64,000 nt of DNA from Jeotgalibacillus malaysiensis (lineage in GTDB: Bacteria > Bacillota > Bacilli > Bacillales > Jeotgalibacillaceae). Each line of letters begins with the position of its first letter. Positions within the stretch are counted from its first letter, which is position 1. Below the pieces are notes generated by a model. It had not been told where the DNA came from and ran no database searches. It saw only the letters and a program-made list of their open reading frames with translations. Of this stretch, positions 36,052 to 51,345 are shown piece by piece. The stretch covers positions 3,022,501-3,086,500 of the forward strand of contig CP009416.1 of NCBI GenBank assembly GCA_000818095.1. Reading direction: 5' to 3'. The translations under genes and the position numbers were made by a program.

Positions 36052-36112
36052 CACTGGGGACGGAGTTAAGTGGTTCATTTTTAGAATGATTCTAAAAGTG
36101 GAACACACAACT
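36052..36112. repeat. Palindromic repeat family C, copy 1 (left part; split by IS copy 1)
   Basis: CACTGGGGACGGAGTTAAG, then TTTTAGAATGATTCTAAAA, then CACACAACT up to the IS. The repeat resumes after the IS at 37591 with ACTCCGTCCCCAGTG. The ACT next to each IS end is the target duplication. Confidence 0.85.
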
Positions 36113-36142
36113 TGATGTGACCCCCAAAAGTTAGAGTTTTTA

Positions 36143-36958
36143 TTAAGCAGCCATTTGGCTGGTATGCAGACGATATTGAACTGGACTCATGCCAGCCAAC
36201 TTTTGTTTGATTCGATCATGGTTGTAATAATGGATATACGTTTCAATATCTTTTTTAAGTTCTTCGTATGTGCGTAACTTCTCTCCATAATACATTTCCT
36301 GTTTTAGTAAACCAAAAAAGTTCTCCATAAGGGCATTGTCGATACAATTTCCTTTTCGGGACATACTTTGAAATACCTTTTGCCCTTTCAGGGCCTTGAC
36401 CCATGTATAGTGCTGATAATGCCATCCTTGATCAGAGTGAATAGTTGTACGGTATTTTGCATACTTTACAAGGTTCAGAGCTTCTTCTAATGGTTTCATA
36501 ACGAAATCCAATGTCGGATGTTGACTGACGCCAAATGAAATCACTTCACTATTATGCATATCCAGGATAGGGCTCAGGTACAACTTTCCGCCACCTAAGC
36601 ATTTGAATTCAGTAATATCGGTTGCCAGCTTTTGAAGAGGATGAGCTGTTTGAAAACGGCGATTCAACCTGTTCTTGGCCACGTTACCTACGGTACCTTT
36701 GTAAGAGCTATAGCTTCTAGATTTCCTTCTGAACTTTAAGCCTTTTAAGCCAAGCTTTTTCATAATCCGTTGAACCTTTTTATGATTGATGATCAGCCCG
36801 TCACTCTTTAGTGCCGCCTGGACTCGACGGTACCCATAGTTGCCATTGTGGGCATCGAAGATGAATCGAATCTGATCTTCAAGCTCCTGATCCGGATTAA
36901 CATCATGCATCCGTTTAATATGATAATGATAGGAAGCTTCAGGAATGCCTACAACCAT
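36143..36958 (-). CDS. IS3-family transposase OrfB, copy 1
   Basis: Catalytic DDE transposase part, 271 residues: D114 (LATDITEF), D176 (HSDQGWHY) and E212 (NALMENFFGLLKQE), i.e. DD35E. A HTH_21-type N-terminal segment (FIFDAHNGNYGYRRVQAAL) precedes them. The frame stays open upstream of its ATG and overlaps orfA in the -1 frame (E L K E T F R L K D V L), so an OrfAB fusion by frameshifting is likely. It differs from the other copies by Asp for Asn in MHDVNP and Val for Ile in RRVQAAL. Confidence 0.93.
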   Translation of the reverse strand: MVVGIPEASYHYHIKRMHDVNPDQELEDQIRFIFDAHNGNYGYRRVQAALKSDGLIINHKKVQRIMKKLGLKGLKFRRKSRSYSSYKGTVGNVAKNRLNRRFQTAHPLQKLATDITEFKCLGGGKLYLSPILDMHNSEVISFGVSQHPTLDFVMKPLEEALNLVKYAKYRTTIHSDQGWHYQHYTWVKALKGQKVFQSMSRKGNCIDNALMENFFGLLKQEMYYGEKLRTYEELKKDIETYIHYYNHDRIKQKLAGMSPVQYRLHTSQMAA

Positions 36959-36969
36959 TAATACATCCT

Positions 36970-37536
36970 TTAGTCTGAATGTTTCTTTGAGTTCGAACGA
37001 TAGCGCTGCTTGTGCTTTTCGAGATAGTTGTTCGGATCCTTCTGAAAAGCTTTTAACTTTTTTAAATAAGCAACCTCAAGACGTAATAACTCGTTTTCTC
37101 TCTCTAATTCTTTTTCTCTGTTAGACGCTTCATTTTGATTAGAGGCTGTCTCGTTTTGACCATTCTTCTTTTTATCTGACATGGTTGATTGTCCTCTCGG
37201 GTTCTCTAGTGCTTCATAACCCCCTTCAAGGAACTTTTTCTTCCATTCGCCAATTAACGATGGGTTCGTTAGTCTAAATTGAAGGGCTGTTTCAGTTTGG
37301 GAAGCACCTGTTCTGTCCATAAAGCTTATTACATCCAGTTTAAATTGAACAGAATAAAATGCCTTTTTCTTTTTCTTTAACCCTTCTTCACCAAAGTGCC
37401 GATAGATATTCACCCAATTAAAGATCTGCGTTTTAGATTGAATACCATGCTTACGTGCTAAAATTCTAATACCATGAGGACCGTTCAAATATTCTTTCAC
37501 AATCATCAATTTAAACTTCTCATTGTATTTAACCAA
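36970..37536 (-). CDS. IS3-family transposase OrfA, copy 1
   Basis: DNA-binding subunit, 188 residues, with two helix-turn-helix segments (IRILARKHGIQSKTQIFNWV and ASQTETALQFRLTNPSLIGEW) and a C-terminal leucine-zipper-like coiled coil (RENELLRLEVAYLKKLKAF). In this copy the start codon reads TTG (GTGCATTTATTTGGTT on the minus strand), whereas copy 3 has ATG at the same place. Confidence 0.92.
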   Translation of the reverse strand: MVKYNEKFKLMIVKEYLNGPHGIRILARKHGIQSKTQIFNWVNIYRHFGEEGLKKKKKAFYSVQFKLDVISFMDRTGASQTETALQFRLTNPSLIGEWKKKFLEGGYEALENPRGQSTMSDKKKNGQNETASNQNEASNREKELERENELLRLEVAYLKKLKAFQKDPNNYLEKHKQRYRSNSKKHSD

Positions 37537-37590
37537 ATAAATGCACCCCTAAAGTTAGTTTTTGAACTCTAACTTTAGGGGTGCACCACA

Positions 37591-37610
37591 ACTCCGTCCC
37601 CAGTGAGTCA
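37591..37610. repeat. Palindromic repeat family C, copy 1 (right part)
   Basis: ACTCCGTCCCCAGTGAGTC, the other arm of the palindrome interrupted by IS copy 1. Confidence 0.8.
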
Positions 37611-37629
37611 TTTTTGTAATCATTCCAAC

Positions 37630-38193
37630 CTACTCCCCAAAAACCCTCACAAACTTCGTAAACCCATCAATAAACTTATCAATCTGCTTCTCAGTCGCTT
37701 CATCTGTCAGGCGCCCTGATTCCGGATCGATTTTATCCTGATAGCGGCTTGCGATGATTTTAGGATTGGTCATGATATTGGCGTTCATATTAGTAAGAAT
37801 CTGACGCACCTGCATTTGTGATAGTGCGGTGCCGACGTTCCCATTTGATGCACCGGCAATTGCGACCGGCAGATTTTTGATTGAGAATTCCTTTGGTGAT
37901 CGCGATGCCCAGTCCAGTGCGTTTTTCAGTCCACCTGGTATTCCTGCGTTGTATTCAGGTGTGACAATCAGCACACCATCTGCTTCATTCAGCTTTTTAC
38001 GGAATGACCTGACTGAATAAGGATTTTCCGCTGCTTCAAGGTCTTCATTAAAGAGTGGCAGCTCCCCGATCTCAGCCTCTTTTATATGCCATTTTCCCTC
38101 TGACTGGCGGATGATTTCATTCATCAGCTTGCGGTTCAGTGAATCTTTTCTAAGGCTGCCGCACAGCGCGACAATCACTGGTAATGACTCCAT
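37630..38193 (-). CDS. NADPH-dependent FMN reductase (flavodoxin-like)
   Basis: A 187-residue flavodoxin-fold reductase of the azobenzene/chromate/quinone reductase group: ALCGSLRKDSLNRKL at the FMN phosphate loop (near residue 10), VLIVTPEYNAGIPGGLKNALDWASR (near 75) and VAIAGASNGNVGTALSQMQVRQIL (near 112). Cytosolic. ATG 38193 follows GGAAAGGGTTGAG and gives the usual N-terminus; the longer reading adds 16 non-conserved residues. Confidence 0.9.
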   Translation of the reverse strand: MESLPVIVALCGSLRKDSLNRKLMNEIIRQSEGKWHIKEAEIGELPLFNEDLEAAENPYSVRSFRKKLNEADGVLIVTPEYNAGIPGGLKNALDWASRSPKEFSIKNLPVAIAGASNGNVGTALSQMQVRQILTNMNANIMTNPKIIASRYQDKIDPESGRLTDEATEKQIDKFIDGFTKFVRVFGE

Positions 38194-38264
38194 ATGCTCA
38201 ACCCTTTCCAAAGACATGTTTCTCTTATTGTAAAAGAGCATGGATGATTTTACATGTTTAAATG

Positions 38265-38606
38265 TTATTCATTATGTATTTCAACGGATTCTCTCCTGTC
38301 AGCAGTCCAACTCATTAAGTAATTGAGCCCTGTCAGAAGTAAACCAGAGATCCCCATCGCAATCGCAAGCCATAACTCGTTCAGGTAAATATAACAGGCA
38401 AGTCCGATACAACCGAAAATGATAAGCAGAAGGCTCCTCTCTTCTTCCTTGGTCAGAATCAGTCCCCACAAAGTAACTAGTGAGCCAAGAAGAACGATTT
38501 GCAAAAGCCTTTGCAAATTAAAATCAAGATAAATTTCCAGAAAAGGCGCAATGACACTAATAATGATTCCTCCAAAACCCTGAATCCATTTCCCCGCTTT
38601 CTCCAT
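38265..38606 (-). CDS. Small membrane protein, 113 aa, unknown
   Basis: Four hydrophobic segments (about 10-24, 29-48, 57-74 and 78-100) and a charged tail DRRESVEIHNE. No family recognised. ATG 38606 is set by AAAAGGAGG 7 bases upstream. Monocistronic as far as can be seen. Confidence 0.7.
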   Translation of the reverse strand: MEKAGKWIQGFGGIIISVIAPFLEIYLDFNLQRLLQIVLLGSLVTLWGLILTKEEERSLLLIIFGCIGLACYIYLNELWLAIAMGISGLLLTGLNYLMSWTADRRESVEIHNE

Positions 38607-38768
38607 TCCACTCCTCCTTTTCAACCAAATTGTTCCTTATGGGTGAATCATACCATTATAAGTTGTTTTTTCAATAATCAGTTTTCATCTGCTCAGATCG
38701 GGTAAATCTGGAAATAGACATCCTTTTAAAAAGGTCACGGACATTCTATTCATTCTGGAGGTTTTAAT

Positions 38769-39908
38769 ATGAAGGCAGTTACATTTCAAGGTACGAAGAA
38801 GATGAAGGTCAAAGAAGTCCCGGATGCGAAGCTGCAGGAGCGGGATGATATTCTCGTACGTATTACCTCAACAGCGATTTGCGGATCCGATCTACATATT
38901 TACCAGGGCGCCCTCCCTGCTCATAAAGATTATGTCATCGGCCACGAGCCAATGGGCATTGTAGAAGAAGCCGGACCTGACGTAACAAGTGTAAAAAAAG
39001 GCGACCGCGTTGTCATTCCATTCAACATTTCATGCGGCGAATGCTACTTCTGCCAAAATGACTTTGAAAGTCAGTGTGATAACTCCAATCCGAACCCGTC
39101 ACTTGATACAGGCGGCTACTTCGGATTCACTGAGCGCTACGGCAATCATCCGGGTGGACAGGCTGAATACCTGCGCGTGCCTTATGGAAACTTTATGCCG
39201 CTGAAAATTCCTGAATCTGTTGAACTTGAAGATGAGGCCCTGCTCTTTATGTCAGACGTTCTGCCGACAGCCCTTTGGAGTGTTGAAAACGCCGGGGTTA
39301 AAAAAGGCAGTACAGTCGCTGTACTCGGCTGCGGCCCAATCGGCCTGATGGCGCAGAAGTTCGCCTGGATGAAAGGCGCAAGCCGCGTCATTGCAGTCGA
39401 TAACCTTTCCTACCGTCTATTCAAAGCGCAGAAGATGAACAACGTTGAAGTCGTAAACTTTGATAATTATGAAGATGCGGGCGAACATATCAGAGAAATC
39501 ACCCAGGGTGGCGTGGATATCGTCATTGATTGCGTCGGGATGGATGGTAAAAAATCAGCCGTCGAAGAAATCGGACAAAAGCTGAGTCTGACAGGCGGCA
39601 CGATCAGCGCCATTGAAATCGGCATGAAAGCCATCCGCAAATTCGGAACCATGCAGCTGACCGGCGTATACGGCTCCATGTACCATGGCTTCCCGCTTGG
39701 CAATATGTTCGAACGCAACATCGAAATTAAAATGGGCCAGGCACCAGTCGTGCACTACATGCCACGCCTATTCGATATGATCCAAAACGGTGAATTTGAT
39801 CCAACCGAAATTGTCACTCACAGAATGAAAATGGATCAGGCTGAGGAAGCCTATCAGATTTTTAATGACCATGAGGATGAATGTATTAAGGTCGTGTTGA
39901 AGCCTTAA
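38769..39908 (+). CDS. Zinc-dependent alcohol dehydrogenase (glutathione-independent formaldehyde dehydrogenase type)
   Basis: A 379-residue medium-chain dehydrogenase. Catalytic Zn ligands lie in [12 protein letters not shown] (Cys, near residue 38) and [11 protein letters not shown] (His-Glu). The structural Zn cysteines are in [16 protein letters not shown] (near 90-105). The Rossmann [18 protein letters not shown] is near 187 and is followed by an NAD-preferring Asp. It oxidises an alcohol or aldehyde; the long C-terminus with [13 protein letters not shown] resembles FdhA-like enzymes. TGGAGG precedes the ATG. Confidence 0.9.
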
Positions 39909-39913
39909 GTTTT

Positions 39914-39943
39914 GAGCCTGTGTGGATGCACAGGCTCTTTTGT
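39914..39943 (+). terminator. Intrinsic terminator
   Basis: GAGCCTGTG/CACAGGCTC stem followed by TTTTGTG. Confidence 0.85.
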
Positions 39944-40030
39944 GTGATACAGCGGGGACGGAGGTTGCTGTATCATTTATGCACAATATTCCATTTTGAT
40001 ACACTAACCTCCGTCCCCCTGTATCACACC
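39942..40030. repeat. Palindromic repeat family C, variant with GATACA ends
   Basis: GTGATACAGCGGGGACGGAG and its complement CTCCGTCCCCCTGTATCAC form long arms around TTTATGCACAATATTCC. The tips read GGAGGTT rather than GGAGTT, so this is a sub-type. Confidence 0.8.
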
Positions 40031-40073
40031 ATTTATTAGCCTCAGCAACCTTTATTACACCTTCACAAAAAAG

Positions 40074-40102
40074 TTGCACTAAACAAACTTTTATCATATA
40101 GT
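40074..40102 (+). promoter_or_regulatory. Sigma-A promoter of the ZIP transporter gene
   Basis: TTGCAC, 17 bases, TATAGT. Confidence 0.65.
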
Positions 40103-40116
40103 ATCATTAGAATGAT
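40103..40116. promoter_or_regulatory. Palindromic operator candidate
   Basis: ATCATTAGAATGAT is a perfect 14-base palindrome directly after the -10 box of the metal transporter. A metal-responsive repressor (Zur, Fur or MntR type) is plausible but not identified. Confidence 0.45.
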
Positions 40117-40139
40117 TTTAATCTAAAGGAGAATGCAGG

Positions 40140-40994
40140 ATGGATGGAGCAGTATTGTATGCGTTTTTGTTAACGCTTTTCGCCGGGCTGGCGACGGGCG
40201 TGGGCAGTATGTTCGCGTTTTTTTCGAAGCGGACGAATACGGCTTTTCTGTCGATTGCACTTGGGTTTTCAGCGGGTGTGATGATTTATGTTTCATTTAT
40301 TGAGATTTTTCCGAAGGCTTTGGATGAACTCACTGCGGGGCATGGTGAACAGACTGGGACGCTGTTCACGGTAATCGCGTTTTTTGCGGGGATGCTGTTT
40401 ATTGGTCTGATTGATAAGTTAATTCCTACTGTTGGAAACCCGCATGAATCTAAGTTTGTTGAGTCCGCGCAGGATCCTGAAGGCGGAGAAACAGTTGCTG
40501 CGAAGGCGACGAAAAAAGCGACGCTGAGTAAAAGTGCTGCGCTCCGTTTACGTAAAATGGGTGTGTTTATGGCCCTTGCGATTGCGATTCATAACTTTCC
40601 TGAAGGACTTGCGACATTTATTTCTGCACTGGATGATCCGGCTGTGGGGCTTGCGATTGCAATTGCGATTGCGCTGCATAATATTCCTGAGGGGATTGCG
40701 GTGTCTGTTCCAATTTATTATGCAACCGGGTCACGCCGAAAAGCGTTTAAGTTGTCTTTTTTATCCGGGCTTGCAGAACCGGCTGGTGCATTAATCGGCT
40801 TTTTAATCTTAATGCCATTTTTAACAGATACAGTGTTTGGCCTGGTCTTTGCAGCTGTCGGCGGCATTATGGTATTTATCTCGCTGGACGGTCTGCTGCC
40901 TGCTGCGCGTGAATATGGAAAAGCGCACCACGCCATGTATGGTATGGTGGCTGGTATGATCGTGATGGCTTCAAGCTTAATTTTACTAATGTAA
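40140..40994 (+). CDS. zupT: ZIP-family metal transporter ZupT
   Basis: A cytoplasmic-membrane zinc (and broader divalent metal) importer, 284 residues, eight predicted helices. Helices IV and V carry HNFPEGLATF and HNIPEGIAV, the ZIP metal-binding motifs. A cytosolic loop (about 100-140) is acidic then basic. AAGGAGAATGCAGG precedes the ATG. A good sigma-A promoter with an overlapping palindrome suggests metal regulation. Confidence 0.93.
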   Translation: MDGAVLYAFLLTLFAGLATGVGSMFAFFSKRTNTAFLSIALGFSAGVMIYVSFIEIFPKALDELTAGHGEQTGTLFTVIAFFAGMLFIGLIDKLIPTVGNPHESKFVESAQDPEGGETVAAKATKKATLSKSAALRLRKMGVFMALAIAIHNFPEGLATFISALDDPAVGLAIAIAIALHNIPEGIAVSVPIYYATGSRRKAFKLSFLSGLAEPAGALIGFLILMPFLTDTVFGLVFAAVGGIMVFISLDGLLPAAREYGKAHHAMYGMVAGMIVMASSLILLM

Positions 40995-40997
40995 TTC

Positions 40998-41023
40998 AAC
41001 CCCCGGGCTTCCGGGGTTTTTCT
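40998..41023 (+). terminator. Intrinsic terminator
   Basis: CCCCGG/CCGGGG stem with TTTTTC, after zupT. Confidence 0.8.
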
Positions 41024-41128
41024 TTAAGGATCATTGTAAAATAATGACTTCTTGACCTGTTTCTACAAAATTGTTTGTGCTACACTGTAATTATCAGATT
41101 TTACCACTTATATTTTCGGGGGAGCTTC

Positions 41129-41371
41129 ATGGGGATATTAAAAGTTTTCAGACTGGTACTTGCTGTAGCCGCCAGCCTGATTGCACTCTACACGACAGCA
41201 ACAGGTCACGTTTTATTTCCAATCTATTATTTAATTTTAGCGATCAGTCTCATCTTTGTTTTAACAGGTTTCGAGAGATTGAAGGCAGAATCAACTAAAA
41301 CCGGCGCTTATTCTGATTTTGCTTTGGCAGGCATATTCATTCTGGCAGTCGTATTTGTGGACTGGTGGTAA
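41129..41371 (+). CDS. DUF3953-like small membrane protein, 80 aa
   Basis: Three short membrane helices (about 4-22, 26-45 and 61-79) with FERLKAESTKTG between the second and third. This resembles the DUF3953 family of Bacillales. ATG 41129 follows GGGGGAGCTTC. Two related proteins are encoded at 46621 and 50013. Function unknown. Confidence 0.72.
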   Translation: MGILKVFRLVLAVAASLIALYTTATGHVLFPIYYLILAISLIFVLTGFERLKAESTKTGAYSDFALAGIFILAVVFVDWW

Positions 41372-41382
41372 TACATAACTTT

Positions 41383-41413
41383 GAACCGGTGCAATTGACC
41401 GGTTCTTTTTTTA
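41383..41413 (+). terminator. Intrinsic terminator
   Basis: GAACCGGT/ACCGGTTC stem and TTTTTTTATT. Confidence 0.9.
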
Positions 41414-41564
41414 TTGAACATTTCCTGTATTTTTTGCAATTTAAAACATTAATATATGTTTATTTGTTTATTTATCAAAATGCGACTATTTATTAAAGGG
41501 ATTGCCAGACACTTTGCGAAAAGTAGTGTTGCCTGAGGGTAATTTATTTTAGAGGAGTGTCGGA

Positions 41565-42662
41565 ATGAAAAAGGCAATTTTATTAATGGTTACGCTTGTG
41601 CTGCTGATCGCAGTGCCGGTTGTATCAGGTTCAACGCTGTTGTCTGTGAATGGCGCAATGGATGAACCAAATGGAGCAGATGTGACAGTCGGCGGTTATA
41701 TTGTGGGGGTACCGGTATCGACTTCGACTGTGCAGCAATCTAACTTCACGAGTGATTATGCGCTCGCACTGGCGGATGATCCTGGTGAAACGCAGATGTC
41801 AGAAATGATTTTTGTCAAGCTGGATGCCGGATATCGCAGTGAATATGGCTTAATGAGTGACCCTTCGAATTTAGGGGATTACGTCGTTGTTGATGGCACA
41901 CGTGATGATTATTTCGCACATGAAGGTATCGAGTCAGTGACATCGATCAGCCGTGAAGCAGGCGGGGATCCGGGTACACCGGGAACAGGCTACTATGCTG
42001 ATGCAGAAGGCTTAACTGGTGTTGCTTTAAAGCAGGCCCTACATAACATTATTGATGATCATCAGGAAATTTCCTATGCTAATGCATGGGAAGCGCTGCG
42101 CAATACAGATGAGGATCCGAATAATCCAAATAACGTTCTGCTTTTATATACAGGGAAATCCATTTCAAAATATGATAATGGCGGACTTGTTGATGAATGG
42201 AACCGCGAGCATGTCTGGCCTCAATCTAAAGGTGATTTCGGCACAACAATGGGGACAGGTACTGACCTGCATGCCCTCAGACCGACTGATGTAACAGTCA
42301 ATTCATCAAGACAGAATCTTGATTTTGATAATGGAGGAAGAATTCACCCTGAAGCACCAAACACATTTTATGACGGTGATTCATGGGAGCCGCGCGATGA
42401 AGTAAAAGGTGATATTGCACGTATGGTATTCTACATGGCAGTGCGCTATGAAGGTGACGCGGGTGAAGTGGACCTTGAAGTGCTTGACCAGGTCGAGGTA
42501 AATGGCCCTTACCTTGGGAAACTCTCCACTTTAAAAGAGTGGCATGAACAGGACCCGGTTGATGCATTTGAACGCAACCGGAATGAGATCATCTTTGAAT
42601 CATACCAGGGAAATCGCAATCCGTTTATTGACAACCCTGAGTACGTTGAAGCCATATGGTAA
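41565..42662 (+). CDS. Secreted endonuclease I-family nuclease with N-terminal OB-like domain
   Basis: A Sec signal peptide (residues 1-22, MKKAILLMVTLVLLIAVPVV) precedes a beta-rich DUF6359/OB-like domain (about 25-130: VTVGGYIVGVPVSTST). The endonuclease I domain (about 140-365) has NREHVWPQSKGDF near 222, TDLHALRPTDVTVNSSRQNLDFDNG near 240 and MVFYMAVRYEGD near 290, with the family catalytic His in EHVWP. It would be exported and degrade extracellular DNA and RNA, like Bsn/YurI of B. subtilis. No cell-wall anchor is seen. GAGGAGTGTCGG precedes the ATG. Confidence 0.9.
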   Translation: MKKAILLMVTLVLLIAVPVVSGSTLLSVNGAMDEPNGADVTVGGYIVGVPVSTSTVQQSNFTSDYALALADDPGETQMSEMIFVKLDAGYRSEYGLMSDPSNLGDYVVVDGTRDDYFAHEGIESVTSISREAGGDPGTPGTGYYADAEGLTGVALKQALHNIIDDHQEISYANAWEALRNTDEDPNNPNNVLLLYTGKSISKYDNGGLVDEWNREHVWPQSKGDFGTTMGTGTDLHALRPTDVTVNSSRQNLDFDNGGRIHPEAPNTFYDGDSWEPRDEVKGDIARMVFYMAVRYEGDAGEVDLEVLDQVEVNGPYLGKLSTLKEWHEQDPVDAFERNRNEIIFESYQGNRNPFIDNPEYVEAIW

Positions 42663-42673
42663 TCATGAAAAAT

Positions 42674-42708
42674 GCAGACCCTTTTCAAAAAATAGGGTCT
42701 GCTTTTAT
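42674..42708. terminator. Bidirectional intrinsic terminator
   Basis: GCAGACCCT/AGGGTCTGC stem with flanking A and T tracts between convergent genes. Confidence 0.85.
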
Positions 42709-43187
42709 CTTTGATTCATTTCATATCCTTTATCCCTCATAATATGCTGCAGCGCACTGCGAAACGTTGAAAAAGAATGAATGCCCACATCTCTCACCAC
42801 GCCTGACAGTACCATCTCCCTTGCAAAAAGCGGAGAAAATCCAACAAAAATCGTACGTGCACCCATCAGCTTAACCGCCCCGATCAGATCTCTCATCTTC
42901 GCAGCCACCAGCTGATAATCCGACTTGTCCACATCATTGATATTCGTCCCTGATAAATCAATCAGTACATTTTCCACTTCCCCGCGCTCCAGGTGATGAA
43001 GAATTGCCTCAAGAATGTGTGTCATCCTCTCTTCAGTGATTCCACCCGTTAAAGGCACCAGAATCGTATGCGGAACAATCGACGGAATAATCGGTGCAGA
43101 CAGCTCTCTAATATATGTTTCATAACGTTCAACTTTTTCATTCAGTCTAACAATCTCCCGCTTCAAGCTTTCAATTGACTCAGACAT
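42705..43187 (-). CDS. Short RsbR-like STAS protein
   Basis: A 160-residue protein. Residues 1-35 are a coiled coil (IESLKREIVRLNEKVERYETYI) leading straight into ELSAPIIPSIVPHTILVPLTG, the characteristic entry to the RsbR STAS domain. VLIDLSGTNINDVDKSDYQL, LMGARTIFVGFSPLFARE and FSTFRSALQHI follow. The N-terminal globin-like sensor of RsbR is missing, so it may plug into stressosomes without its own turret. ATG 43187 follows GGGAGAGCC. Confidence 0.8.
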   Translation of the reverse strand: MSESIESLKREIVRLNEKVERYETYIRELSAPIIPSIVPHTILVPLTGGITEERMTHILEAILHHLERGEVENVLIDLSGTNINDVDKSDYQLVAAKMRDLIGAVKLMGARTIFVGFSPLFAREMVLSGVVRDVGIHSFSTFRSALQHIMRDKGYEMNQR

Positions 43188-43252
43188 GGCTCTCCCTCTT
43201 TTCGCCAATAGGATACTCTTAATATACCCCTGAAATGAGATTATGTAACCCT

Positions 43253-43326
43253 TGATACAGCGGGGACGGAGGTTGTTGTATCGTTCTGATAATCATTACA
43301 AAAATGGCACACTGGGGACGGAGTTG
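43253..43326. repeat. Palindromic repeat family C (GATACA arm plus left arm of copy split by IS copy 2)
   Basis: TTGATACAGCGGGGACGGAG, TGTTGTATC, then CACACTGGGGACGGAGT meeting the IS at 43327. AGT at 43324-43326 is duplicated at 44804-44806. Confidence 0.8.
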
Positions 43327-43379
43327 TGGTGCACCCCTAAAGTTAGAGTTCAAAAACTAACTTTAGGGGTGCATTTATT

Positions 43380-43946
43380 ATGGTTAAATACAATGAGAAG
43401 TTTAAATTGATGATTGTGAAAGAATATTTGAACGGTCCTCATGGTATTAGAATTTTAGCACGTAAGCATGGTATTCAATCTAAAACGCAGATCTTTAATT
43501 GGGTGAATATCTATCGGCACTTTGGTGAAGAAGGGTTGAAGAAAAAGAAAAAGGCATTTTATTCTGTTCAATTTAAACTGGATGTAATAAGCTTTATGGA
43601 CAGAACAGGTGCTTCCCAAACTGAAACAGCCCTTCAATTTAGACTAACGAACCCATCGTTAATTGGCGAATGGAAGAAAAAGTTCCTTGAAGGGGGTTAT
43701 GAAGCACTAGAGAACCCGAGAGGACAATCAACCATGTCAGATAAAAAGAAGAATGGTCAAAACGAGACAGCCTCTAATCAAAATGAAGCGTCTAACAGAG
43801 AAAAAGAATTAGAGAGAGAAAACGAGTTATTACGTCTTGAGGTTGCTTATTTAAAAAAGTTAAAAGCTTTTCAGAAGGATCCGAACAACTATCTCGAAAA
43901 GCACAAGCAGCGCTATCGTTCGAACTCAAAGAAACATTCAGACTAA
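43380..43946 (+). CDS. IS3-family transposase OrfA, copy 2
   Basis: Same 188-residue sequence as copy 1 (helix-turn-helix near residues 21 and 77, leucine zipper near 148-160). The start codon appears to be TTG in this copy, the bases before it being one shorter than in copy 1. It ends 11 bases before the orfB ATG. Confidence 0.92.
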   Translation: MVKYNEKFKLMIVKEYLNGPHGIRILARKHGIQSKTQIFNWVNIYRHFGEEGLKKKKKAFYSVQFKLDVISFMDRTGASQTETALQFRLTNPSLIGEWKKKFLEGGYEALENPRGQSTMSDKKKNGQNETASNQNEASNREKELERENELLRLEVAYLKKLKAFQKDPNNYLEKHKQRYRSNSKKHSD

Positions 43947-43957
43947 AGGATGTATTA

Positions 43958-44773
43958 ATGGTTGTAGGCATTCCTGAAGCTTCCTATCATTATCATATTA
44001 AACGGATGCATAATGTTAATCCGGATCAGGAGCTTGAAGATCAGATTCGATTCATCTTCGATGCCCACAATGGCAACTATGGGTACCGTCGAATCCAGGC
44101 GGCACTTAAGAGTGACGGGCTGATCATCAATCATAAAAAGGTTCAACGGATTATGAAAAAGCTTGGCTTAAAAGGCTTAAAGTTCAGAAGGAAATCTAGA
44201 AGCTATAGCTCTTACAAAGGTACCGTAGGTAACGTGGCCAAGAACAGGTTGAATCGCCGTTTTCAAACAGCTCATCCTCTTCAAAAGCTGGCAACCGATA
44301 TTACTGAATTCAAATGCTTAGGTGGCGGAAAGTTGTACCTGAGCCCGATCCTGGATATGCATAATAGTGAAGTGATTTCATTTGGCGTCAGTCAACATCC
44401 GACATTGGATTTCGTTATGAAACCATTAGAAGAAGCTCTGAACCTTGTAAAGTATGCAAAATACCGTACAACTATTCACTCTGATCAAGGATGGCATTAT
44501 CAGCACTATACATGGGTCAAGGCCCTGAAAGGGCAAAAGGTATTTCAAAGTATGTCCCGAAAAGGAAATTGTATCGACAATGCCCTTATGGAGAACTTTT
44601 TTGGTTTACTAAAGCAGGAAATGTATTATGGAGAGAAGTTACGCACATACGAAGAACTTAAAAAAGATATTGAAACGTATATCCATTATTACAACCATGA
44701 TCGAATCAAACAAAAGTTGGCTGGCATGAGTCCGGTTCAATATCGTCTGCATACCAGCCAAATGGCTGCTTAA
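43958..44773 (+). CDS. IS3-family transposase OrfB, copy 2
   Basis: A 271-residue DD35E transposase (D114, D176, E212). It is identical in protein sequence to copy 3 and differs from copy 1 by two residues (Asn in MHNVNP, Ile in RRIQAAL). Confidence 0.93.
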   Translation: MVVGIPEASYHYHIKRMHNVNPDQELEDQIRFIFDAHNGNYGYRRIQAALKSDGLIINHKKVQRIMKKLGLKGLKFRRKSRSYSSYKGTVGNVAKNRLNRRFQTAHPLQKLATDITEFKCLGGGKLYLSPILDMHNSEVISFGVSQHPTLDFVMKPLEEALNLVKYAKYRTTIHSDQGWHYQHYTWVKALKGQKVFQSMSRKGNCIDNALMENFFGLLKQEMYYGEKLRTYEELKKDIETYIHYYNHDRIKQKLAGMSPVQYRLHTSQMAA

Positions 44774-44803
44774 TAAAAACTCTAACTTTTGGGGGTCACA
44801 TCA

Positions 44804-44867
44804 AGTTCAGTGTGCCATTTTTAGAATCATTATAAAAATGAATCACTGAACTCCGTCCCCACTGCGC
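44804..44867. repeat. Palindromic repeat family C, right part of copy split by IS copy 2
   Basis: AGTTCAGTGTGCCATTTTTA, AGAATCATTATAAAAATG, then CTGAACTCCGTCCCC. Joined to 43310-43326, it restores a complete palindrome. Confidence 0.85.
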
Positions 44868-44870
44868 CGC

Positions 44871-46370
44871 TCACTGCTTAAGCAAGCTCTCCCCCTTATC
44901 AATAATCTCCTTCTTCTTATCAGCATCCCGCTTCTGCCACTGCTTATAGACCAGCCCCATCCGATGATTATCACTGAGTTTGTCAGCGTGCCGATCTAAG
45001 AAGTGCCAGTAGAGTGCGTTGAATGGACAGGCGTCTTCTTCTGTCTGGTGGTTAACGTTATATTTACAGGAACCGCAGTAGTTGCTCATTTTGTTGATGT
45101 ATTTACCTGATGCGACGTAAGGCTTGGTGGAAAGGACGCCTCCATCTGCATAGAGTGCCATCCCGAGTACGTTCGGCAGCACGACCCAGTCGTGGGCATC
45201 GATATACATTTCGTTGAACCAGTCTGCGGTCTGCTGCGGTGAGAGTCCGTAAAGTGTTGCGTAGTTGCCAATGACCATGAGCCGCTGGATATGGTGGTTG
45301 TAGCCATGCTCCACTACCGGCCGGATTGACTCATGCATACAATTCATATCGGTATCTGCATCCCAGAAAAAAGACGGCAGATCGCGCTCATGGTTAAAGT
45401 TATTAACATCACGGTACTTTGGCATCTTCTTCAGATAGATTCCCCGTATAAACTCACGCCAGCCAATGAGCTGCCTGATAAATCCTTCAGCTGAGTTAAG
45501 CGGCACCTCTCCATCCAGATAGGCTTGTTCAGCTTTACTGACTACCTCCATTGGCGTAAGCAGCCCAATATTTATAGAAGAAGACAGAAGTGAGTGCGAC
45601 ATAAAATCGTCCCCTTCAAGCATTGCATCCTGGTAAGTACCAAAGGTTTCGAGCCTTTCTTTGATGAACTGATTCAGTGCCTGTAACGCTTCTTTCCTCG
45701 TCACCGCCCATCTGAACGGCTTAATCTCACCCGGGTTATCTCCGAACTGCTTTTCAACCTTTTCAATGACATCTTTGGTGATATCATCCGGCCTGAATGA
45801 CCGGGCTTTTGTAAATGTGGTATCGCTTTTAGCCGACTTACGGTTATCCTGATCGAACGACCACTTGCCACCTACAGGATTCTCCCCCTCTACCAGCACG
45901 TTGAGACGCTTTCGCATCCTTCGGTAAAAAGGATCCATCTTCCACGGTCCATCACCCTTCAGCTCATTTTTGATTTCCTCAACAGTCAGTAAAAACAGCG
46001 GACGGGCGTCAAGCACTTCCACTTCAATACCAGACAGCCCCTTCTCCCACTTTTTCATCGCCTGAGTCATCCGATAATCCGTGTGAACCGTATAATAAAC
46101 CTTCTCAGGCTTAAACTCTTTCGCATGCGCCTTCCACGCATCCTCAAACGAATCCGCTTCACGGTAATCCACCTGATACCCCTTCTCCTCAAGCTCCGCT
46201 GCAAAATGCCGCATCGCAGAAAAAATCAACACAAGCTTCTGCTTATGATAATGCTGCCACGTCGAACGCGACTGCGCTTCAATCATCAAAAACACATCAT
46301 CCTCATCAGCCTCTTTCACTATCGGCAGCTCATGACACAATTGATTCCCAAAAATCCAGCGTGTAGCCAT
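44871..46370 (-). CDS. Iron-sulfur cryptochrome/(6-4) photolyase-related protein (FeS-BCP)
   Basis: A 499-residue DPRP-type flavoprotein. The N-terminal Rossmann antenna domain (MATRWIFGNQLCHELP) is followed by a helical FAD domain with FIRQLIGWREFIRGIY, VVEHGYNHHIQRLMVIGNYATLYG and DWVVLPNVLGMALYADGG. Four cysteines expected to hold a 4Fe-4S cluster are present: DMNCMHES, NYCGSCKYN (two) and EDACPFN. It would repair (6-4) photoproducts or sense blue light. ATG 46370 follows CAGGAGGTGATTCC; the longer reading is not needed. Confidence 0.92.
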   Translation of the reverse strand: MATRWIFGNQLCHELPIVKEADEDDVFLMIEAQSRSTWQHYHKQKLVLIFSAMRHFAAELEEKGYQVDYREADSFEDAWKAHAKEFKPEKVYYTVHTDYRMTQAMKKWEKGLSGIEVEVLDARPLFLLTVEEIKNELKGDGPWKMDPFYRRMRKRLNVLVEGENPVGGKWSFDQDNRKSAKSDTTFTKARSFRPDDITKDVIEKVEKQFGDNPGEIKPFRWAVTRKEALQALNQFIKERLETFGTYQDAMLEGDDFMSHSLLSSSINIGLLTPMEVVSKAEQAYLDGEVPLNSAEGFIRQLIGWREFIRGIYLKKMPKYRDVNNFNHERDLPSFFWDADTDMNCMHESIRPVVEHGYNHHIQRLMVIGNYATLYGLSPQQTADWFNEMYIDAHDWVVLPNVLGMALYADGGVLSTKPYVASGKYINKMSNYCGSCKYNVNHQTEEDACPFNALYWHFLDRHADKLSDNHRMGLVYKQWQKRDADKKKEIIDKGESLLKQ

Positions 46371-46433
46371 GGAATCACCTCCTGATAGTGGTATACCCAT
46401 TGTGCAGGCGGATGAGTCGGGTGGATGTGCACA

Positions 46434-46562
46434 TTGGGGACGGAGTTGCGTGTGCTGTTTTTAGAATGGTTATTAAAATGTACACCCCCGGGACGGAGTT
46501 GAGTGATCCACTTTTAGAATCATTCTTATAATGGATCATTCAACTCCGTCCCCAGTGAGCCA
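46434..46562. repeat. Palindromic repeat family C, uninterrupted copy with an extra half-unit
   Basis: ATTGGGGACGGAGTTGCG, then a second arm CCGGGACGGAGTTGAGTG, the centre TTTTAGAATCATTCTTATAA and the closing arm TTCAACTCCGTCCCCAGTG. This is the cleanest view of an empty IS target site. Confidence 0.85.
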
Positions 46563-46620
46563 CTTTCATTACCGAACCAAAAAATGCTAAAATAAAAAGA
46601 AAAAAATGGCAGGTGTTTTT

Positions 46621-46884
46621 TTGTATGTAAAGGCTTTTAGAATTCTTTCTTATATTGCGGCAGCGGTTGTGTTAGTGAATGTTGGGCTGAGGTGGTTTGC
46701 GGATATTGATTTAATTGGTCCCGCCTGGTTTCTGGTGCCGACGATCATTTTGGCTGTTGGGTTGGGGATGGAGTCATACATAGATAAAACCCGAGGAAAC
46801 AAATTAGCCTATTTTTATTTCCTCGCGAGCGGGATCATGTTGGGTTTTTTGGTTTATGAAGTTGTTAATCAAGTCTTCATCTGA
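46621..46884 (+). CDS. Small membrane protein, DUF3953-like paralogue
   Basis: Three hydrophobic helices (MYVKAFRILSYIAAAVVLVN, IGPAWFLVPTIILAVGLGME, LAYFYFLASGIMLGFLVYEV). The sequence aligns by eye with the protein at 50013 (VVxLVNVG, a MESY/AEYY turn, KLAYFYF/KTAYSFF). I prefer TTG at 46621 (SD AGGTG) to the ATG at 46606, which overlaps the SD; this is uncertain. Function unknown. Confidence 0.65.
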   Translation: MYVKAFRILSYIAAAVVLVNVGLRWFADIDLIGPAWFLVPTIILAVGLGMESYIDKTRGNKLAYFYFLASGIMLGFLVYEVVNQVFI

Positions 46885-46887
46885 AAA

Positions 46888-46933
46888 AACGCTATGAGCA
46901 GCTCCGTTTCCAAACGAAGTTGTCCATAGCGTT
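46888..46933. terminator. Bidirectional terminator-like hairpin
   Basis: AACGCTATG/CATAGCGTT arms with an inner stem, between convergent genes. Confidence 0.7.
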
Positions 46934-46942
46934 TCCCTAATG

Positions 46943-47767
46943 TTATTCAGTATCCTTCTTCCACTCGTCCTGCTCAATCAGCATTTTACCAGGCCAGGTA
47001 TATGCAAGAATCCCGCCGTCTGCTTTAATATCTTCCCCGGTTACATATGAACTGTCGTCTGAGGCAAGGAACAGTGCAACAGTCGCCATTTCGCGCGGTT
47101 TCCCTAGTCTGCCAAGCGGTGTGATCCACTTGTTGGCTTCACGGAATGCTTCACCCATCTTCTCCTGTTTTGATCCGACCAGTTCATCAATGAGCGGCGT
47201 TTCAATTGTTCCCGGTGAAACGGAATTTACACGGATGCCGTGACGCGCGTAATCGATCGCTGTCGCCTTGGTAAAGTTGATAATGCCACCTTTTGCAGCA
47301 TTATAGCCTGAGCGGTCAAGGTCTGCAGCGTGTCCTGACATAGAACCGTTATTAATAATCGAACCGCCGTGATCCATCATTAGTGGGATAATAAATTTAC
47401 TCATTAGAAACGTCCCGCGAAGGTCTACTGCGATAATCCGGTCAAAAAGCTCAATCGGATATTCATGTACCTTTCCACCCTGCTGATCCACTCCTGCATT
47501 GTTGAACAGAACATCCACCGTTTTATATTCTTCCTTGATCGCTTCTGCAAATGACTCTACACTCTTTTCATCGGAAACATCAACTTCATAAGCAACTGCC
47601 TTGCCGCCGTTACTAGTGATTTCACTTACCACCTGATCAAGCTCATCCTTGTTTACATCAGCAAGTACCGTTACAGCACCTTCCTCAGCAAAAACGTGTG
47701 CCGTTGCTTCACCGATTCCAGTAGCAGCTCCCGTGATTATTGTCGTCTTGCCCGATAAACGTCCCAT
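46943..47767 (-). CDS. Short-chain dehydrogenase/reductase
   Basis: A classical SDR of 274 residues: cofactor loop TGAATGIGEATAHVF (near residue 12), NNAG (near 89), the catalytic Ser in IINNGSMSG and the YxxxK in SGYNAAKGGIINF (near 153). The C-terminal SYVTGEDIKADGGILAYTW is the typical substrate-side end. It prefers NAD(P) and probably oxidises an alcohol or sugar. GGAGGTTTTTCGA precedes the ATG. IS copy 3 is inserted 85 bases upstream of its start. Confidence 0.9.
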   Translation of the reverse strand: MGRLSGKTTIITGAATGIGEATAHVFAEEGAVTVLADVNKDELDQVVSEITSNGGKAVAYEVDVSDEKSVESFAEAIKEEYKTVDVLFNNAGVDQQGGKVHEYPIELFDRIIAVDLRGTFLMSKFIIPLMMDHGGSIINNGSMSGHAADLDRSGYNAAKGGIINFTKATAIDYARHGIRVNSVSPGTIETPLIDELVGSKQEKMGEAFREANKWITPLGRLGKPREMATVALFLASDDSSYVTGEDIKADGGILAYTWPGKMLIEQDEWKKDTE

Positions 47768-47839
47768 TCGAAAAACCTCCTGTTATTTGTATATACATGA
47801 GGTTCCCTTTTTGTGGAAGTGTAAACATAGAGCGGCATA

Positions 47840-47852
47840 CCCGGGACGGAGT
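47840..47852. repeat. Palindromic repeat family C, left part of copy split by IS copy 3
   Basis: CCCGGGACGGAGT up to the IS. AGT at 47850-47852 is duplicated at 49332-49334. Confidence 0.8.
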
Positions 47853-47882
47853 TGATGTGACCCCCAAAAGTTAGAGTTTTTA

Positions 47883-48698
47883 TTAAGCAGCCATTTGGCT
47901 GGTATGCAGACGATATTGAACCGGACTCATGCCAGCCAACTTTTGTTTGATTCGATCATGGTTGTAATAATGGATATACGTTTCAATATCTTTTTTAAGT
48001 TCTTCGTATGTGCGTAACTTCTCTCCATAATACATTTCCTGCTTTAGTAAACCAAAAAAGTTCTCCATAAGGGCATTGTCGATACAATTTCCTTTTCGGG
48101 ACATACTTTGAAATACCTTTTGCCCTTTCAGGGCCTTGACCCATGTATAGTGCTGATAATGCCATCCTTGATCAGAGTGAATAGTTGTACGGTATTTTGC
48201 ATACTTTACAAGGTTCAGAGCTTCTTCTAATGGTTTCATAACGAAATCCAATGTCGGATGTTGACTGACGCCAAATGAAATCACTTCACTATTATGCATA
48301 TCCAGGATCGGGCTCAGGTACAACTTTCCGCCACCTAAGCATTTGAATTCAGTAATATCGGTTGCCAGCTTTTGAAGAGGATGAGCTGTTTGAAAACGGC
48401 GATTCAACCTGTTCTTGGCCACGTTACCTACGGTACCTTTGTAAGAGCTATAGCTTCTAGATTTCCTTCTGAACTTTAAGCCTTTTAAGCCAAGCTTTTT
48501 CATAATCCGTTGAACCTTTTTATGATTGATGATCAGCCCGTCACTCTTAAGTGCCGCCTGGATTCGACGGTACCCATAGTTGCCATTGTGGGCATCGAAG
48601 ATGAATCGAATCTGATCTTCAAGCTCCTGATCCGGATTAACATTATGCATCCGTTTAATATGATAATGATAGGAAGCTTCAGGAATGCCTACAACCAT
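47883..48698 (-). CDS. IS3-family transposase OrfB, copy 3
   Basis: 271-residue DD35E transposase, same protein as copy 2 (D114, D176, E212 intact). Confidence 0.93.
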   Translation of the reverse strand: MVVGIPEASYHYHIKRMHNVNPDQELEDQIRFIFDAHNGNYGYRRIQAALKSDGLIINHKKVQRIMKKLGLKGLKFRRKSRSYSSYKGTVGNVAKNRLNRRFQTAHPLQKLATDITEFKCLGGGKLYLSPILDMHNSEVISFGVSQHPTLDFVMKPLEEALNLVKYAKYRTTIHSDQGWHYQHYTWVKALKGQKVFQSMSRKGNCIDNALMENFFGLLKQEMYYGEKLRTYEELKKDIETYIHYYNHDRIKQKLAGMSPVQYRLHTSQMAA

Positions 48699-48709
48699 TA
48701 ATACATCCT

Positions 48710-49276
48710 TTAGTCTGAATGTTTCTTTGAGTTCGAACGATAGCGCTGCTTGTGCTTTTCGAGATAGTTGTTCGGATCCTTCTGAAAAGCTTTTAACTTT
48801 TTTAAATAAGCAACCTCAAGACGTAATAACTCGTTTTCTCTCTCTAATTCTTTTTCTCTGTTAGACGCTTCATTTTGATTAGAGGCTGTCTCGTTTTGAC
48901 CATTCTTCTTTTTATCTGACATGGTTGATTGTCCTCTCGGGTTCTCTAGTGCTTCATAACCCCCTTCAAGGAACTTTTTCTTCCATTCGCCAATTAACGA
49001 TGGGTTCGTTAGTCTAAATTGAAGGGCTGTTTCAGTTTGGGAAGCACCTGTTCTGTCCATAAAGCTTATTACATCCAGTTTAAATTGAACAGAATAAAAT
49101 GCCTTTTTCTTTTTCTTCAACCCTTCTTCACCAAAGTGCCGATAGATATTCACCCAATTAAAGATCTGCGTTTTAGATTGAATACCATGCTTACGTGCTA
49201 AAATTCTAATACCATGAGGACCGTTCAAATATTCTTTCACAATCATCAATTTAAACTTCTCATTGTATTTAACCAT
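48710..49276 (-). CDS. IS3-family transposase OrfA, copy 3
   Basis: 188-residue DNA-binding subunit identical to the other copies. It starts with ATG (ATTTATTATGGTT on the minus strand), probably the ancestral form. Confidence 0.93.
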   Translation of the reverse strand: MVKYNEKFKLMIVKEYLNGPHGIRILARKHGIQSKTQIFNWVNIYRHFGEEGLKKKKKAFYSVQFKLDVISFMDRTGASQTETALQFRLTNPSLIGEWKKKFLEGGYEALENPRGQSTMSDKKKNGQNETASNQNEASNREKELERENELLRLEVAYLKKLKAFQKDPNNYLEKHKQRYRSNSKKHSD

Positions 49277-49331
49277 AATAAATGCACCCCTAAAGTTAGT
49301 TTTTGAACTCTAACTTTAGGGGTGCACCACA

Positions 49332-49394
49332 AGTTGAGTGAGCCACTTTTAGAATCATTCTCATAATGAACCATTAAACTCCGTCCCCAATGAG
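49332..49394. repeat. Palindromic repeat family C, right part of copy split by IS copy 3
   Basis: AGTTGAGTGAGCCACTTTTA, AGAATCATTCTCATAATG, CATTAAACTCCGTCCCCAATG. Confidence 0.85.
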
Positions 49395-51218: not shown

Positions 51219-51345
51219 CAGCCGGGACGGAGTTGACTGTTCCATTTTTAGAATGATTCTCATTATGACCCACTTAACTCCGTCCCGCCCGTGTCATTTT
51301 TAGAATCATTCCATTTTCGACTCACTCAACTCCGTCCCCAGTACG
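51219..51345. repeat. Palindromic repeat family C, uninterrupted copy with an extra half-unit
   Basis: GCCGGGACGGAGTTGACTG, TTTTAGAATGATTCTCATT, CTTAACTCCGTCCCGCC, then a second TTTTAGAATCATTCC and CACTCAACTCCGTCCCCAG. Confidence 0.85.

Follow-up and report, generated by a model that had tools for sequence, protein, structure and literature searches.

Among IS3-family elements, IS1397 of Escherichia coli and ISKpn1 of Klebsiella are described as specific for REP palindromes, a specificity that is ascribed to their transposase (cited in PMC1525189). In the same report, ISPsy8 of Pseudomonas syringae, also a member of the IS3 family, is recorded at one REP position in five of five copies, with a 3-bp duplication and with the insertion lying on the symmetry axis of the predicted hairpin (PMC1525189). 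IS1272/TnSha1 of staphylococci, which belong to the IS1182 family, are described as using hairpin targets with little conservation of primary sequence, several of them confirmed transcription terminators, and as inserting bluntly, which removes part of the hairpin and leaves no target duplication (PMC4923244). The element of Jeotgalibacillus malaysiensis analyzed here resembles IS1397 and ISKpn1 by description, in its IS3-family membership and its palindrome-specific insertion, so that the analogy drawn in an earlier note on this DNA is supported; these two, however, have enterobacterial hosts and use different repeats. By description it can likewise be compared with ISPsy8, but its repeat is a different one and it inserts off the axis of the long palindrome. 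With IS1272/TnSha1 its lineage has in common the hairpin targets, whereas the transposase family differs and the host element does duplicate its target. An IS1272-type mode, i.e., partial hairpin deletion without duplication, was rejected for the host element, which shows a 3-bp duplication and keeps the repeat on both sides. Group IIC introns also insert at intrinsic terminators, but through a retroelement mechanism.

The window, a stretch of 64,000 nucleotides of the J. malaysiensis genome, contains three copies of the element (Table 1), each with a 3-base duplication, ACT or AGT, as had been noticed earlier. The coordinates then proposed for copies 1 and 3 were correct, while the start given to copy 2 (43327) lies two bases late, and both empty repeats reported at that time are present. 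Compared with the 1479-bp copies, copy 1 misses one base near the orfA start. The element belongs to the IS3 family, as previously assigned: OrfB reaches 288 bits against the NCBIfam model transpos_IS3 (cut-off 160), carries the Pfam domains rve, rve_2 and HTH_21, and retains the DD(35)E spacing, counted by hand on its translation. IS3-family tips TG...CA, inverted repeats and the 3-bp target duplication were found in all eight full host copies, and in many group-A relatives (see below) the tips are GG...CC instead. The OrfB frame is open over 310 aa and, judging from the sequence, a programmed -1 frameshift probably joins OrfA to OrfB.

Table 1. Coordinates of the IS copies, repeat arms and element parts in the window.
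Feature	Position	Strand	Remarks
IS copy 1	36113..37590	-	1478 bp; palindrome right arm; duplication ACT at 36110-36112 and 37591-37593
IS copy 2	43325..44803	+	1479 bp; palindrome left arm; duplication AGT at 43322-43324 and 44804-44806
IS copy 3	47853..49331	-	1479 bp; left arm, orientation opposite to copy 2; AGT at 47850-47852 and 49332-49334
GGGACGGAGTT, intact left arm of copy 1 palindrome	36057..36067	+	
GGGACGGAGTT, copy 1 target arm	37590..37600	-	last base is also IS end
GGGACGGAGTT, copy 2 target arm	43315..43325	+	last base is also IS end
GGGACGGAGTT, copy 2 partner arm	44849..44859	-	
GGGACGGAGTT, copy 3 target arm	47843..47853	+	last base is also IS end
GGGACGGAGTT, copy 3 partner arm	49377..49387	-	
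Empty repeat, three arms	46437..46552		arms 46437 +, 46490 +, 46542 -
Empty repeat, three arms	51224..51338		arms 51224 +, 51276 -, 51328 -
19-bp hairpin, orfA end of IS	43328..43375	+	directly 5' of OrfA start codon; fold -30.0 kcal/mol
OrfA, 188 aa	43380..43946	+	Pfam helix-turn-helix matches: HTH_28 (two stretches), HTH_Tnp_1
Slippery heptamer A AAA AAG, OrfA frame	43853..43859	+	-1 shift enters OrfB frame
OrfB, 271 aa, IS3 transposase catalytic part, DD(35)E	43958..44773	+	NCBIfam, Pfam

A genome-wide scan identified eight full copies of the element, an IS3-family member of probable IS150 type, in J. malaysiensis. In seven of them the insertion point falls directly after GGGACGGAGT; the eighth (C1:396993-398471) has the same offset, in a core decayed to GGGGACGAATG, and the duplication ATG. 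The IS end adjoining the core is the orfA side in four copies and the orfB side in the other four. Exact GGGACGGAGTT sites number 88 in the 4.12-Mb host genome, against 0 for the reversed-pattern control, and the chance of seven of eight copies falling on those 88 positions is about 1.6e-32 by an arithmetic estimate. As for REP-targeting IS elements, all eight copies occupy a single position in an extragenic palindrome that is abundant, seven of them exactly. The claims that a palindromic repeat is targeted at one exact position and in both orientations relative to the core hold genome-wide, and a search of the host genome for complete copies that lie in unrelated DNA or differ in position did not overturn them. 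The location of all eight copies in the repeat family or its decayed form would also be expected if the IS were a passenger of a mobile palindrome, spread without targeting it. We give this almost no credence: every copy is bordered by a 3-bp duplication and flanking sequence of its own, both orientations occur, and empty repeats are far more numerous. In addition, a search for Y1-type transposases (PF01797, E <= 0.001) gave 0 matches in the host genome and was positive in 5 of 14 control genomes, although another mobilizer is possible. Because no Y1_Tnp match was found, a RAYT-driven REP origin of the host repeat is unsupported.

In six of the eight host sites the insertion lies 23 bp off the center of the long palindrome, away from its loop, and only two sites pass our local hairpin measure. 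Strong long inverted repeats surround seven of the eight sites in a wide, uncontrolled scan (stem scores 35-62), in which the site of the eighth copy still lacks one (score 14). A perfect 10-bp stem encloses the core in 2 of the 88 arms (L122 and L144, the latter occupied by copy 2), and the arm flanks show no covariation across the 88 arms (4.40 pairs vs 4.30 shuffled), for which reason a single-arm hairpin was dropped as the general host target. The off-center position, the two hairpin passes, the weak eighth site and the lack of covariation together suggest that the host element may recognize the conserved core by its sequence. A stricter version, in which GGGACGGAGT is recognized purely as DNA sequence and the palindromy of the repeat is incidental, seems to us rather unlikely. 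It agrees with the exact position in seven copies, with the six sites failing the hairpin measure and the non-covarying arms, and with the same GGGAC+5 offset at repeats of other genomes (L047, L258; flanks read by eye). Yet it has to contend with the copy sitting in GGGGACGAATG, with nearest tree relatives that target hairpins of unrelated sequence and with 47 different 3-bp duplications among 114 related sites. This diversity, together with the ATG of the eighth host copy, also speaks against the trinucleotide as a rule, as put forward in the earlier note.

That note knew of no Firmicute counterpart. We found relatives in 75 of 299 genomes of the order (E <= 1e-50), and those examined are located mostly in terminator-like hairpins or other palindromic repeats; palindrome-targeting counterparts of IS1397/ISKpn1 are common in Bacillota. 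The relatives were divided into group A (about 60-75% OrfB identity) and group B (46-51%). Among sites with a target duplication, the local measure detected a hairpin at 89/100 in group A and 32/32 in group B, and among those without it at 8/14 and 5/7, respectively, so that non-hairpin group-A sites amount to 11/100 and 6/14. These counts exclude 13 duplicates, 4 sites located at contig edges and 4 whose flank contains N. Ends were never assigned to some loci (8 lacking ends and 2 of insufficient length in one set, 1 and 3 in another, and 1 not oriented), and the Lactococcus copy L263 and the second copy L265 had no clear ends. The background of the measure at control positions was 262/1836 (14.3%), and 238/1561 (15.2%) at noncoding ones. 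IS256-family insertions in the same order, chosen as control since the IS6 family yielded too few copies, scored 7/34; these are the resolved sites, end detection having failed at 12 of 46 loci, with L301 and L304-L306 left out beforehand. Insertion in this family therefore seems to be directed to palindromes and not to be random. Random insertion with persistence only in intergenic hairpins might be considered, as IS insertions into needed genes are generally expected to be lost, but both the noncoding positions and the IS256-family sites score far lower, and one exact nucleotide is shared by seven host copies; we regard such survivorship as highly improbable.

Loop position, duplications, T-runs and A/T tracts were evaluated in a stricter set restricted to 3-bp duplications (91 group-A, 23 group-B and 8 host sites), from which 25 A and 9 B sites without a 3-bp duplication, 7 B with unclear ends, 11 duplicates, 4 at edges and 4 with N were left out. 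The center of the duplication lies at most 3 nt from the hairpin center in 53 of 92 hairpin sites (centers were sought only within 12 nt), and the duplication overlaps the loop at 58 of 92. Base preference at the 114 related sites, unsymmetrised, comprises C at -3 in 56 and G at +5 in 55. Most targets of the relatives are terminator-like; in several lineages a repeated palindrome takes their place. The presence of a T-run of at least 4 on at least one side of 75/92 hairpin sites is what one would expect if terminators were targeted through transcription termination, by way of paused RNA polymerase or the RNA hairpin, and not through DNA palindromy. We judge this improbable, though less so than survivorship: the remaining 17/92 have no such T-run, and the repeats used by some lineages score mostly as non-terminators (G178, 7/7; G017, 4/5; G047, 2/2). 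Moreover, two-sided A/T tracts are enriched, with 51 two-sided vs 24 one-sided among target hairpins and 25 vs 49 among control hairpins (p=3.8e-5), a pattern that could alternatively arise if insertions between convergent genes are tolerated. With respect to the stronger T-run, orientation was the same in 26 cases, opposite in 43 and equal in 23 (p=0.053) and was not used as evidence.

Target class (terminator vs palindrome) follows the transposase tree, with 9 changes against a shuffled minimum of 16, and the host IS nests among terminator users, in a tree that includes several copies from some genomes and in which the forks placing the host are not starred. One genome (G258) carries both a group-A element residing in hairpins, 4/5 of them scored terminator-like, and a group-B element residing in a palindromic repeat (3/3); therefore, it seems to be the element and not the host that sets the target. 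Together with the tree, these two elements indirectly support a specificity carried by the transposase.

The host site is fixed, hairpin placement extends across the examined relatives and target class follows the tree. The explanation that we favor, and consider probable, is an IS150-type lineage whose transposase guides insertion to hairpin-capable inverted repeats and whose host member has specialized on one repeat family. Strand transfer would proceed by a staggered cut of 3 bp (sometimes 4-5 bp), usually in the loop or adjoining it. For most of the lineage the target would be an intrinsic-terminator-like hairpin, while several lineages, including the one studied here, rely on a palindromic repeat that their host carries; for the J. 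malaysiensis element this is the GGGACGGAGTT family, entered after GGGACGGAGT in either orientation. We infer that the palindrome is read by the transposase itself, whether through dsDNA symmetry or after extrusion as a hairpin, and that the host element used terminators before it turned to the repeat. A broader and more tentative possibility, which we would not yet prefer, is that a large DDE transposase lineage recognizes the hairpin/cruciform shape itself, with terminators as the ancestral safe site in Bacillota and with lineages repeatedly re-aimed at palindromic repeats of their hosts.

In full-text searches of openly licensed papers we came across no account of IS3-family elements that target terminators. 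What looked like a local curiosity becomes a testable rule, namely that a widespread transposase group lands in hairpins, which might explain why IS elements are inserted at the ends of genes in Bacillota. Natural pairs of relatives, one using terminators and the other a repeat, would let swaps map the target-reading part of the transposase, and the lineage could point the way to tools for structure-directed DNA insertion.

As for the subgroup, the transposase shares 41.2% identity with IS150 and 42.4% with ISKpn8 (rows in plasmids). In a tree built without named members of other IS3 subgroups, IS150, on a long branch, joins the host IS in a group of 106 rows, separate from two relatives of 36-37%. 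Most copies of E. coli IS150, sampled as the subgroup yardstick, adjoin hok/mok loci.

All three IS copies that an earlier note had placed within palindromic repeats in the window are present, each flanked by the 3-bp target-site duplication described there; only the start of the second copy, formerly set at 43327, was corrected (see table). The assignment to the IS3 family also stands, as the 271-aa OrfB matches the IS3 transposase model (288 bits, cut-off 160) and the OrfA/OrfB layout is standard for the family. OrfB contains a DD(35)E motif (spacing counted by hand), the 188-aa OrfA yields helix-turn-helix matches, and an A AAA AAG heptamer lies in a frame such that it would lead into OrfB. 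By these sequence features, the host element is a standard member of the IS3 family. The left (orfA) end carries a hairpin, and perfect inverted repeats of ≥10 bp were found at this end in 111/143 loci of the host and group A (relatives of about 60–75% OrfB identity) and in 29/39 loci of group B (46–51%), and at the right end in none of either set. We infer that the left-end hairpin may shield OrfA against outside transcription. The first window copy and another host copy (L002) are identical and have in common a one-base loss that turns the OrfA ATG into an in-frame TTG, which suggests that this variant itself moved. Many group-A elements (L164–L171, L194–L200 and others) have GG...CC tips, which the duplication supports, where IS3 elements usually have TG...CA.

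Coordinates of the host IS copies and associated features
Feature	Coordinates	Strand	Remarks
Host IS, copy 1	window 36113-37590	-	TTG variant of OrfA start
Host IS, copy 2	window 43325-44803	+	
Host IS, copy 3	window 47853-49331	-	
Left-end hairpin	window 43328-43375		19 bp, immediately 5' of start codon, -30.0 kcal/mol
Decayed relative (L029)	G000:C1:2729180-2729911		host genome; stop codons, 44% identity

Reading all 16 junctions in the 4.12-Mb, two-contig host genome confirmed insertion into a palindromic repeat at a fixed position and extended it to eight full genome-wide copies. In seven of the eight, the exact core GGGACGGAGT directly precedes the IS, while the eighth follows, at equal distance, GGGGACGAATG, a decayed form of this core. 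The orfA side adjoins the core in four copies and the other side in four. The exact 11-mer of this repeat is present 88 times in the host genome (42 forward, 46 reverse), and the same 11-mer written backwards never. With the IS removed, 72 of the 88 arms are matched by an exact inverted partner at a distance of ~52 bp. Of the 12 genomes searched (one taxonomic family and one genus, host included), 8 contain one or more exact matches. The repeat is independent of the IS, since it is abundant in the sister genomes G001 (92 matches) and G011 (86), neither of which has a close copy of the host IS; a single 48% relative occurs in G011. A search for a Y1-type transposase in the host genome gave no match. 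The repeat is unevenly distributed, with 80/88 host arms at 2.1–3.5 Mb of contig C1, none on C2 by exact 11-mer search, and, by hand count, about 70 of the 92 G001 arms inside ~90 kb of contig C25.

The earlier note knew of no Firmicute counterpart, yet 75 of 299 genomes of the host's order hold an OrfB match at E ≤ 1e-50. From named genomes, 80 loci were kept among at least 583 confirmed candidates; group B is part of the 44–51% matches (two fetches of 20 regions each). IS ends were placed by inverted repeats and then checked against the duplication. The flanks usually read as A-tract, stem, IS in or beside the loop, other half-stem and T-tract, the picture of a terminator-like hairpin that the IS has interrupted. 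For scoring, the IS and one duplication copy were removed, and a hairpin was called when the best stem with a centre no more than 12 nt away scored ≥20 or the folding energy of 61 nt was ≤ -15. Hairpins were found at 89/100 group-A sites with a 3–5 bp duplication (82/91 with exactly 3 bp) and 8/14 without, and at 32/32 group-B sites with a duplication and 5/7 without. On the same either-or measure, control positions in the same flanks gave 262/1836 (14.3%), noncoding ones 238/1561 (15.2%), and insertions of the IS256 family from the host's order 7/34 resolved sites. Because these controls score far lower, selective loss of other insertions does not account for the bias. The 153 non-host sites comprise 103 hairpins bearing a T-run of at least 4 (A 83/114, B 20/39), 31 hairpins lacking one (A 14, B 17) and 19 sites in neither class (A 17, B 2). 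This lineage-wide hairpin preference is a more interesting outcome than the repeat targeting in the host. By our own reading, an IS of the same type on an Acinetobacter indicus plasmid (L264) also splits a terminator-like hairpin.

The claim that one trinucleotide is the rule did not survive, as 47 different duplications occur at 114 related sites; C at -3 is found in 56 of these, G at +5 in 55 and both in 29. Among 92 hairpin sites of both groups with stem ≥20 and 3-bp duplications, 53 have the duplication centre ≤3 nt from that of the hairpin, and 58 have a duplication overlapping the loop. T-runs of at least 4 flank these 92 on both strands in 51 cases, one strand in 24 and none in 17, versus 25, 49 and 46 control noncoding hairpins (two-sided vs. 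one-sided, p = 3.8e-5). We read this excess as a preference for symmetric DNA, not for termination; better tolerance of insertions between convergent genes would also give it.

A tree built from 108 OrfB rows nests the host element, on a long branch (0.41), among terminator users. The neighbour of the host element, the G166 element (fork 88/83, not starred), has 7/8 terminator-like sites, the Sporosarcina thermotolerans element is also near (85/85, not starred), and a branch with 88/92 support (not starred) separates group A, host included, from the rest. With 68 rows scored terminator-like and 22 other palindrome (the three host rows assigned to the latter by hand), target class changes 9 times vs. 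≥16 (mean 20) in 300 shuffles, a contrast that several rows per genome can inflate. Other lineages use a repeat, although these assignments are readings of printed flanks, with no statistic, and automatic classes differ in places. The five analysed copies of Halalkalibacter urbisdiaboli (L061–L065; automatically one no hairpin, three terminator-like) follow GGGCACTGAAAAAG or a variant, one on the mirror arm; L061 and L063 show no matching duplication where one is expected. Four G247 copies (L190–L193; one no hairpin, one terminator-like) lie inside a GTCCTTCATTC-type palindrome, and the fetched copies in G178 (7), G017 (5), G047 (2) and G258 group B (3) in a repeat whose arms carry GAGCCTCCTC and GGGGTCTC. 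Insertion into GGGAC-containing repeats at the host offset was seen at L047, L048 and L258, and on the other strand at L049 and L072; the offset was not matched at L080 or L066. G258 is a natural test of target choice, with two elements in one genome: the group-A element (L179/L217–L221) has hairpins at 5/5 sites, four of them terminator-like, and the group-B element (L249–L251) lies in the repeat at 3/3.

Loop targeting is least well supported for the host element. A wide scan, run without a control, placed 7/8 host sites in strong inverted repeats (scores 35–62); for copy 2 the strongest hairpin is that of the local arm, 3 nt off centre. A live alternative is that the host IS reads the core as sequence, inside a lineage otherwise following palindromes. 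It is favoured by the duplication lying 23 bp from the inverted-repeat centre in six of those seven sites and by the score of just 14 at the eighth site, both from this uncontrolled scan, by the local hairpin measure, which only 2/8 host sites pass, and by the arm flanks, which show no covariation (4.40 pairs vs. 4.30 shuffled, sd 0.10).

REP targeting is described for ISPsy8 and others, with IS1397 and ISKpn1 cited, in PMC1525189. The host IS is a novel form of such REP-targeting IS3 elements. IS1272 is reported to target hairpins and terminators, with blunt deletion and no duplication (PMC4923244). The examined portions of PMC6211511, which describes a Firmicutes IS3 group, name no target preference, and a search of the openly licensed literature turned up no account of IS3-family elements targeting terminators. 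In E. coli, 10 of 12 IS150 records (L266–L277, drawn from 20 rows across the ranking) have the IS next to an annotated hokA or mokC, in one orientation or the other, many being one ancestral site and so not independent. In one further record it sits between glyS and a remnant of rhsB, and in the last there is no annotated neighbour; K-12 IS150 is at hokA too.
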